DNA from: Bacteroidales bacterium
Lineage (GTDB): Bacteria; Bacteroidota; Bacteroidia; Bacteroidales; UBA932
NCBI GenBank assembly: GCA_017473705.1
Contig: JAFUJQ010000041.1
Coordinates: 1 to 43,900 of the forward strand
DNA: 43,900 nucleotides
Reading direction: 5' to 3'
The notes under the pieces were generated by a model, which was not told the origin of the DNA, ran no database searches, and saw only the letters and a program-made list of their open reading frames with translations. This document shows, piece after piece, positions 1 to 2,431 of the stretch. The position numbers and the translations under genes are program-made. How positions within the stretch are numbered: position 1 is the first letter of the stretch; the number at the start of each line of letters is the position of its first letter.

Positions 1-1880
1 GTTACGGCCGCCGTTTACCGGGGCTTCAATTCAGAGCTTCTCTTGCGATGACTCCCCCTCTTAACCTTCCGGCACCGGGCAGGTGTCAGGCCATATTCGT
101 CATCTTGCGATTTCGCATAGCCATGTGTTTTTGGTAAACAGTCGCCTGGGCCATTTCTCTGCGCCCATTTTCATGGGTCCCCTTATCCCGAAGTTACGGG
201 GTCAATTTGCCTAGTTCCTTAGCCGTGATTCACTCGAGCACCTGAGGATCCTCTCCTCACCCACCTGTGTCGGTTTACGGTACGGGACGTCATACGCTTG
301 ACGATCGCCAGCTTTTCTTGCAAGTCTGATTACCCGCGCTATCACCTCGTCCGAAGACTCAGCGTACTGTCGGAGTTCGCTTTCGCTACATCCTTCAACC
401 TCCTATTCCGTCAGGAGGCGGCGGTGTCACTTCTCGGTCACTGGCTTTCCTGCATGACGTGTATCGGAATATTAACCGATTCGTCATCGGGTTCCCCTCT
501 CGGGTACCCCTTAGATCCCGACTAACCCTGGTACGTTTAGCGTTGTCCAGGAAACCTTGGGTTTTCGGTGAGCATGTTTATACATGCTTTGTCGTTACTC
601 ATGCCTACATTTTCTTTTCCAGACGCTCCAGCAAGCCTCGCGGCTCACCTTCTACGCCGACTGGAATGCTCCCCTACCACTCTTAATAGAGTCCTTTGCT
701 TCGGCGGCGGTCTTGATGCCCGGTTATCATCCACGCGTCATCGCTCGACTAGTGAGCTGTTACGCACTCTTTAAATGAATAGCTGCTTCCAAGCTAACAT
801 CCTAGCTGTCTCTGCGATGTCACCTCGTTCCAACAACTTAAACCGCTCTTGGGGGCCTTAGCAGAAGGTCTGGGCTGTTTCCCTCTCGCCACCGGACATT
901 AGCACCCGGCGACTCACTCCCGTCCATCACTTCACGGCATTCGGAGTTTGTCAGGAATTGATAGGCGATGAAGCCCTCGCATCCTATCAGTAGCTCTACC
1001 TCCGTGAAGCTAAGACGAGGCTGTCCCTAAAGACATTTCGGGGAGTACGAGCTATCTCCCAGTTTGATTAGCCTTTCACCCCTACCCACAGCTCATCCGA
1101 GCACTTTTCAACGTAAACCGGTTCGGTCCTCCAGTCCCTGTTACGGAACCTTCAACCTGGCCATGGGTAGATCACTAGGTTTCGCGTCTGCTCCGTCCGA
1201 CTGAACGCCCTGTTCAGACTCGCTCTCGCTTCGGCTCACGGACCTTAAGTCCTTAACCTCGCCGGACAGAAGCAACTCGTAGGCTCATTATGCAAAAGGC
1301 ACGCTGTCGCACTCTCGTGCTCCAACCGCTTGTAAACGGACGGTTTCAGGTTCTATTTCACTCCCCTGCTCGGGGTGCTTCCCACCTTTCCTTCACAGTA
1401 CTGGTACACTATCGGTCTTCTGGGAGTATTTAGCCTTGCGGGATGGTCCCCGCGGATTCAGACAGGATTTCACGTGTCCCGCCCTACTCAGGTGCCGGCC
1501 GCGTCATCATTAACTTACCTGTACGGGGTTTTCACCCTCTGTGACCGAACTTTCCAGAACGTTCCAGTTCGTTCACGATGATCTAATGACCGGTCCTACA
1601 ACCCCGACGATGCCGTAACATCGCCGGTTTAGGCTCTTCCCCGTTCGATCGCCACTACTAAGGGAATCGATAATTTCTTTCTCTTCCTGCGGGTACTGAG
1701 ATGTTTCAGTTCCCCGCGTTCGCCCCAGCATCGCTGGTGACACATCTTCAATGTGCCGGGTTGCCCCATTCGGATATCACCGGATCAATACCTGTTTGCA
1801 GTTCCCCGGTGCTTGTCGCAGCTTACCACGTCCTTCGTCGCCTCCAGAAGCCTAGGCATCCGCCGTCCGCTCTTGTAACC
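1..1880 (-). rRNA. rrl: 23S ribosomal RNA, 5' two-thirds (cut by window edge)
   Basis: The reverse complement begins near 1880 with the typical 23S 5' end (AAGAGCGGACGGCGGATGCC) and runs without visible interruption to position 1, where the sequence CGGCGGCCGTAAC is the start of helix 69 (about E. coli position 1913). The length present, about 1880 nt, agrees with the same interval in E. coli, so no large intervening sequence is evident. The remaining third (domains IV end to VI) and any 5S gene lie beyond the window. The open reading frames in this stretch are chance frames. No 16S gene or tRNA lies upstream within the 550 nt before the divergent OPT gene, which is unusual because 16S-tRNA-23S linkage is the norm in Bacteroidales. 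The exact 5' end is uncertain by a few bases. Confidence 0.97.
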
Positions 1881-2065
1881 TTCTCTCTGTTTTTTCCTTC
1901 GATTTGAATCACAAGAACTTCTCGTGCTGTTATACACTTGTTCTCATTTACTCGTTGCCTTGAAATTGCAGTCCACAACTTGCGATAGACTCTCTATCTA
2001 TTACTCGTTACAGACTAATTATTAATTTCATCTTCTAACTTTACCTCGTTATCTTTTCTCAAACT

Positions 2066-2076
2066 TGTCAATGAAC
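2066..2076 (-). promoter_or_regulatory. boxA-like motif in the 23S leader
   Basis: The minus strand reads GTTCATTGACA about 20 nt downstream of the predicted start, followed by AAGTTTGAGAAAAG. It resembles the GTTCTTTGACA-type words found in leaders of Bacteroidales rRNA operons and the boxA antitermination element. The assignment rests on recall of that motif only. Confidence 0.4.
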
Positions 2077-2101
2077 TTACCGTTATTTCTCAAACGGGTT
2101 G

Positions 2102-2132
2102 CAAAGGTACGACTTTTTTCTTTTCCTGCAAA
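2102..2132 (-). promoter_or_regulatory. Promoter of the 23S rRNA gene
   Basis: On the minus strand TTTG (2132-2129) is followed after 19 nt by TACCTTTG (2109-2102) and then C. This is the Bacteroidetes -33/-7 layout (TTTG, TAnnTTTG), and it has the same spacing and the same -7 word as the tRNA-Leu promoter at 32625-32655. Transcription would start near 2095, giving a leader of about 215 nt before the 23S 5' end. It suggests that this 23S gene is transcribed on its own. Confidence 0.75.
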
Positions 2133-2258
2133 TTTTTCTACATAATTTTTTCGAAAATTTTCACTTTTCTTTTTAGTAAGGAACGTAACCACCTTAATTT
2201 CAACTAATTAGCGCAATAAAATATTTACCATGGCGCACAAATCACTATATATCAACAA

Positions 2259-2300
2259 CTTACAGAAAGTACGTGCCGGCAAAAGGGAGCACGAGGTTTC
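2259..2300 (-). repeat. Hairpin repeat with conserved 12-nt loop, copy 1
   Basis: Read on the minus strand, CGTGC (2276-2272 complement) and GCACG pair around the loop TCCCTTTTGCCG. Two further copies, at 27981-28013 and 29154-29185, have longer stems around nearly the same loop (TCCCTTTNGGCG). On the plus strand this copy and the 27981 copy are both preceded by CTTACAGAAA and followed by GCACGAGGTTT, so the flanks match while the loop is inverted. There is no strong T tract on the minus strand. Confidence 0.5.
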
Positions 2301-2371
2301 GAGAAATTGCTGGGTATCAAGCAGATACGCGCCAGAAGATATTTTATGCAGAGATATTCAGATATTATGAT

Positions 2372-2379
2372 TACTTTTG
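2372..2379 (+). promoter_or_regulatory. Possible -7 box of the OPT transporter gene
   Basis: TACTTTTG fits TAnnTTTG and lies 52 nt before the start codon. There is no good TTTG at the expected distance upstream (the nearest candidate, TATG, gives a 23-nt spacer), so the call is tentative. Confidence 0.35.
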
Positions 2380-2431
2380 TAATTGTGCCCGCATGAAGGG
2401 ATAAACCAAGGAAGAAACTATTTATATATAT

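Follow-up and report, generated by a model that had tools for sequence, protein, structure and literature searches.

A split rRNA operon with a probable separate promoter for the 23S-5S unit in a family of animal-gut Bacteroidales in which RNase III was not detected

In a lineage of animal-gut Bacteroidales, which we take to be the genus Candidatus Cryptobacteroides (family UBA932 of GTDB), the rRNA operon appears to be split behind its spacer tRNAs into two transcription units with balanced promoters, boxA protection and RNase III-independent trimming of the 23S, a reading to which we assign a probability of roughly 0.88. The first unit would comprise a promoter, the 16S gene, tRNA-Ile, tRNA-Ala and a terminator, and the second, whose start lies in the DNA analysed here, a promoter, a hairpin, boxA, a leader, the 23S and 5S genes and a terminator. 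Both would be read from the same strong housekeeping promoter type with their output kept balanced, boxA would shield each transcript from premature termination, and the pre-23S would be trimmed by another nuclease at or near a leader-trailer helix of ~12 bp, which occupies the position of the long RNase III stem of other Bacteroidales. The sequence itself shows how the units are arranged and conserved and which signals are predicted, and maturation of the 23S is probably RNase III-independent.

The 23S end of the window and its recurrence in relatives

The window (i.e., the whole stretch of DNA analysed, 43,900 nucleotides) is an entire contig (G000:C51:1-43900) from a 171-contig MAG that is 71% complete, and its genus is taken to be Candidatus Cryptobacteroides. 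This genus is placed by NCBI in Bacteroidales incertae sedis, and Coprenecus in Rikenellaceae. The contig starts inside a 23S rRNA gene, whose 5' two-thirds occupy positions 1-1886 on the reverse strand (Rfam LSU_rRNA_bacteria RF02541, 1583.6 bits, model positions 1-1940) and which is truncated by the contig edge, base 1 of the window being the contig start. A preliminary description, made from the sequence alone, had placed the 23S 5' end at about 1880, with a divergent protein gene within 550 nt upstream and neither a 16S gene nor spacer tRNAs. All of this was borne out: Rfam puts the end at 1886, an OPT family oligopeptide transporter (660-aa ORF at 2432-4414 on the forward strand; PF03169, 1.1e-109; TIGR00733) starts at 2432, or 546 nt from the 23S 5' end, and the 42 kb upstream of the 23S hold neither a 16S nor spacer tRNAs, the sole tRNA of the window being a tRNA-Leu at 32802. 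The OPT protein is 100% identical in the closest named relative, Bacteroidales MAG SIG159 (L037). Searches of the window and of its own MAG found no 16S and only this partial 23S, which leaves the genome's own 16S-23S distance and trailer arm outside the assembled MAG.

Ahead of the 23S leader (1887-2100, reverse strand), which is conserved in relatives, a motif search placed a Bacteroidota-type promoter, TTTG-N19-TACCTTTGC, at 2101-2132 on the reverse strand, likewise conserved in relatives. The pattern TTTG-N18..20-TACNTTTGC matched three times in the window, against 0.00 matches expected from shuffles. One of the other copies is the tRNA-Leu promoter at 32625-32656, whose boxes and 19-nt spacing are identical to those of the 23S promoter, as had been claimed beforehand. 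The third promoter-like match, TTTG-N20-TACATTTGC at 15305-15337 (reverse strand), overlaps the start of a 496-aa ORF (13818-15308, reverse strand), the real start of which may therefore lie further in. Behind the 23S promoter follow, all on the reverse strand, a small hairpin CCGTTTGAGAAATAACGG (2080-2097), the boxA-like motif GTTCATTGACA (2066-2076) that the preliminary description had also pointed out, and a candidate leader arm TTTGAGAAAAGATAA (2049-2063). This arm lies where 15 relatives have a conserved short 23S closing helix, and its partner arm before the 5S would fall outside the contig. In E. coli boxA acts in antitermination, and by analogy the boxA-like motif may serve the same function here.

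The junction between 23S and upstream flank is widely shared. Searched with window positions 1400-2900, 97 of 101 genomes (the window's own included) matched in some way, and the order 23S-leader-OPT recurs, with diverged sequence, in named MAGs including Candidatus Coprenecus. Among 84 distinct 23S 5' flanks of at least 300 nt (shorter flanks were dropped), the strict promoter TTTG-N19/20-TA..TTTG was present in 82, where single-base shuffles average 0.12 of 84. It lies 138-364 nt upstream of the 23S (median 243), with a spacing of 19 in 78 flanks and of 20 in four; the two flanks lacking the strict motif are that of G011, which has CTTG for TTTG, and a linked spacer of the closed genome G443. 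The boxA-like motif G[AT]TC[AT]TTGA follows the promoter in 78 of 83 leaders, and hairpins resembling CCGTTTGAGAAATAACGG were seen by eye, uncounted, in relatives' leaders. Since OPT is the divergent upstream neighbour of the 23S in only 52 of the 84 flanks (158-2757 nt away), neighbours differ while the promoter stays. One flank (L021) carries tRNA-Glu and tRNA-Pro, and in G096 (L289, start of G096:C3) the unlinked 23S follows a co-oriented pepT gene, with OPT 8 kb off and the promoter kept.

Unlinked rRNA genes are defined in PMC8178347 as 16S and 23S lying more than 1500 bp apart, the first 1500 bp behind the 16S being free of a 23S. Upstream of the 23S, a 16S is absent from 42 kb in the window and from all 83 unlinked relatives' flanks, each with 600-3000 nt available, and none of the latter holds a tRNA-Ile or tRNA-Ala either. 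The one 16S upstream of any 23S in the 84-flank set belongs to a linked operon of G443, a member of another genus. Close relatives with a 16S directly upstream, the observation against which the preliminary description had staked its claim, are absent from the 83 unlinked flanks.

These comparisons also bear on whether a repeat-induced chimera joined the 23S end to the OPT flank. The contig does stop within the 23S, a common break point, and one relative's MAG contains a foreign rRNA contig (G149:C112, archaeal). However, many MAGs assembled separately have the junction with diverged sequence, the join keeps its promoter, a promoter of this kind also precedes the unlinked 23S of the closed genome G443, and in G179 a complete 23S-5S lies within a 206-kb contig. 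Given the junction in independent MAGs and the promoter in 82 of 84 flanks, we rejected a misjoin, which is extremely improbable. The earlier claim that the 23S is genuinely unlinked and has a promoter to itself is supported by the same two observations, together with 16S units devoid of a 23S and a split pair in a closed genome (see below).

The 16S half, a closed genome and linked controls

To locate the other half of the operon, 150 genomes (the window's own and genus members at least 90% complete) were searched for 16S, and 17 contained any. Eight genus MAGs have well-assembled 16S 3' ends (G082, G045, G063, G157, G167, G159, G174 and G073). In all eight the 16S is followed by tRNA-Ile and tRNA-Ala, and neither BLAST nor Rfam found a 23S behind them in the 5.1-15.0 kb fetched. 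The 23S lies on a different contig in seven of these genomes and was not found in the eighth, G073. A further genome, G096, might be taken as linked, its rRNA genes ending at contig edges, but the edge of its contig C5 holds the last 62 nt of a 16S with tRNA-Ile and tRNA-Ala, apart from its 23S genes, which were found on C2, C4 and C3 (a 49-nt stub) only, and it was counted as unlinked. A linked operon in G149:C112 (L195) was left out: this 5.4-kb contig, an archaeal 16S-Ala-23S-5S operon inside a Bacteroidales MAG, is contamination. Overall, no 23S lies within 1500 bp behind the 16S in the eight genus MAGs, on C5 of G096 and for one of three 16S copies of G443.

Promoter-like and terminator-like signals were seen at the ends of both units. 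The promoter type of the 23S unit was found on all 13 family 16S 5' flanks read (10 genomes). Terminator-like hairpins occur after tRNA-Ala in G082 (six in the stretch, counting both strands, against 0.5 in shuffles) and after the 23S-5S of G179, where the hairpin, with its T run, starts 6 nt past the 5S (one found, against 0.4 in shuffles).

The closed genome G443, from the same family and another genus, is a single contig of 2,657,245 bases. One 16S, at 428995-430518, is accompanied by tRNA-Ile and tRNA-Ala, and the next 23S lies 109 kb further, at 539750-542624, followed by a 5S and with no 16S before it. G443 also has two linked 16S-23S-5S operons with spacers of 295 nt that lack tRNAs, i.e., one closed family genome combines a split pair with two linked operons. 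The unlinked 23S-5S ends ~3.6 kb before one of the linked operons. The unlinked 23S has a promoter, TTTG-N19-TACCTTTG, ahead of its leader, and the linked spacers have none. From boxA on, this leader is nearly the same, by eye, as the 3' part of the linked 16S-23S spacer. A leader of this kind behind a promoter suggests an origin of the 23S unit in which an rRNA-type promoter came to stand before a spacer remnant.

The mixed organisation of G443 raises the question of whether the genome of the window likewise has complete linked operons, the 23S described here being an extra unlinked copy. The contig break within the 23S, typical of multi-copy genes, is in keeping with this, and most family genomes are fragmented MAGs in which extra linked copies as in G443 are possible. 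Within the genus, however, the 16S 3' ends are unlinked in eight of eight MAGs and on C5 of G096, no 23S was found on a 16S contig, and no genus 23S flank contains a 16S in the 600-3000 nt available. We therefore consider a mixed genome here quite improbable.

Linked controls were drawn from an order-level sample of 199 genomes (the window's own and genomes at least 95% complete), in which 16S 3'-end and 23S 5'-end patterns matched 26 and 29; matches running into contig ends were dropped. By our own count of the listings, at least 31 genomes outside the family are linked, 30 of them with spacers of 123-860 nt and G385 with one of 157 nt. Behind one 23S (L326, G420:C1), tandem 5S genes were seen at 5670-5781 and 5870-5981. 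Among the matches listed, the promoter motif occurs in none of 50 linked spacer rows (30 genomes, some copies counted twice). The absence also speaks to the possibility that the promoter of the window is an ordinary second promoter in a long spacer, with a 16S farther upstream on the same transcript. Promoters of this kind are known within bacterial rRNA operons, but their absence from these linked spacers, the 42 kb upstream without a 16S and the divergent gene starting 546 nt away leave that explanation hardly any credence.

RNase III and the short 23S helix

RNase III was not detected with TIGR02191 in any of the 19 genomes searched in the family (G443, G375 and 17 genus members, among them the window's own), which are related and count as a single contrast; their rRNA arrangement was read in those other than G146 and G375. 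The same model matched four of five linked genomes of the order, the exception being G345, and, among 14 named controls, nine, one of them Bacteroides. Where the order genomes were positive, rnc follows fabF in all four (G462 by model, the others by similarity or by eye). The corresponding order in G443 is acpP, fabF (TIGR03150) and a convergent DUF4270 gene, with no rnc, and RNase III queries gave no match in the 800 kb of G443 fetched. RNase III thus appears to have been lost in the family, and it is for this reason that trimming of the pre-23S by another nuclease is proposed. As G443 keeps linked copies without a detected RNase III, the split looks permitted, rather than forced, by this loss.

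The precursor stems were compared as well. For the duplex between the 23S leader and the 23S-5S trailer, six linked genomes gave z-scores of -4.5 to -15.9, whereas the 12 units from 11 family genomes lay between -0.3 and -3.2; these scores, like those below, derive from single-base shuffles with leader and trailer lengths chosen by hand, which are longer on average in the family. The 16S stem of the family scored -6.8 (G443 unlinked), -4.6 (G096) and -2.4 (G443 linked), and that of seven linked genomes -2.4 to -6.7. RNase III was searched for in two of the six linked genomes used for the 23S stem (G462 and G433), and both were positive.

What remains of the 23S stem is one helix of ~12 bp. It begins 14-15 nt past the start of boxA in 15 of 15 sequences and, in the 11 rows read, stops 8-10 nt short of the 5S, the trailer arm being farther off in G443 and G179. 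Over the 15 sequences 95% of cells pair, and in eight of the 12 pairs both partners have changed (0 of 500 shuffles). Covariation scored 0.445, as compared with 0.133 in shuffles (reached by 0 of 500) and 0.009-0.152 in slid versions; of the five measures used, that of further pair types was equalled by 11 of 500 shuffles. The helix comes from a search in these same sequences, anchored on motifs and partly by hand, which favours the pairing percentage and, to a lesser degree, the compensatory changes. On these alignments the short helix appears to be under selection.

That selection could also be understood if the family had an RNase III that has diverged beyond the reach of TIGR02191 and still acts on the short helix; the linked genome G345 gave no match either. 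On the other hand, the search that matched nine of 14 controls found none in 19 family genomes, the place of rnc behind fabF is empty in G443, and the 23S stem is weaker than in the six linked genomes. Overall, we regard a diverged RNase III as unlikely and favour trimming by another nuclease.

Other families, known systems and implications

Outside the family, four genomes of three other Bacteroidales families appear unlinked among the matches listed (G337, G470, G346 and G287). In G337 (L403, C13) and G470 (L404, C17), which belong to one family, the 23S lies directly behind the gene for ribosomal protein L27 (identified by PF01016 in G337 and by eye in G470). A promoter-like TTTG-N19-TAATTTTG lies 138-139 nt upstream of both 23S genes, and the 12 and 17 kb fetched, respectively, yielded no 16S. 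G346 (L401, L402, C5), a genome of 1.2 Mb, has a pair of 16S copies behind which no 23S was found over 13.7 and 15.3 kb, and G287 (L405, C5) a 16S-Ile with none over 18 kb; these absences rest mainly on BLAST with four 23S queries, and Rfam gave the same result for the 1.5 kb (G346) and 6 kb (G287) closest by. The 16S copies of these two genomes are accompanied by tRNA-Ile, one copy also by tRNA-Ala, and G378, from the family of G287, is linked. The three families are thus candidates for similar rRNA splits.

It is somewhat more probable than a coin toss, in our view, that these observations reflect a single course of events: the family would have lost RNase III and rebuilt its 23S maturation, the operon being cut behind the spacer tRNAs, the 23S-5S half gaining a promoter before a spacer remnant, and the stem shrinking to a selected helix of ~12 bp, from behind boxA to before the 5S, for another nuclease, with similar splits in other families.

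Unlinked rRNA genes across bacteria and archaea were reportedly surveyed by Brewer et al. in the ISME Journal in 2020. The criterion of more than 1500 bp, as given in PMC8178347, is the same; the present case concerns animal-gut Bacteroidales, with the split placed after the spacer tRNAs. In PMC8178347, unlinked rRNA genes are described as previously undetected in the human gut, and horse-gut cases are assigned to Firmicutes. Fewer RNase III genes have been reported for unlinked genomes, and unlinking has been suggested possibly to remove the need for RNase III (both as cited in passages of PMC7761764 and PMC11559005), whereas PMC7761764 itself saw no difference of significance in RNase III.

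Wolbachia, Helicobacter pylori and Buchnera have split rRNA genes, with the 16S apart from the 23S(-5S); in Wolbachia and H. pylori 16S and 23S are separate transcription units, and in H. pylori the separate precursors are reported to mature with involvement of RNase III (all as described in PMC7761764). The family described here resembles these organisms in the separation of the 16S from the 23S. They belong to other phyla, and H. pylori, in the account just cited, uses RNase III, which was not detected in our family. Closer at hand, the linked Bacteroidales operon (G462, G374, G398) also has the 16S followed by tRNA-Ile and tRNA-Ala, with a similar 16S promoter type in several genomes. Unlike the split arrangement, it has the 23S within 123-860 nt, behind a promoter-free spacer and, in the six genomes tested, a long 23S stem.

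Unlinked rRNA genes are a known organisation, and the lineage is new as far as searches show: literature searches combining unlinked rRNA with Bacteroidales, Bacteroidota, Cryptobacteroides and UBA932, which did not extend to the tables of Brewer et al. 2020, did not find it. The unexpected part, in our view, is that a reduced yet covarying helix coincides with an undetected RNase III.

Long-read amplicon surveys spanning 16S-23S would miss such organisms, and a 16S in MAGs of this kind cannot be tied to its 23S by linkage. With split and linked copies in a single closed genome, and with linked, RNase III-bearing relatives elsewhere in the order, the family lends itself to a natural test of whether the loss of RNase III and the loss of rRNA linkage go together. 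The covarying short helix, in turn, provides a defined substrate for finding the nuclease that would replace RNase III.
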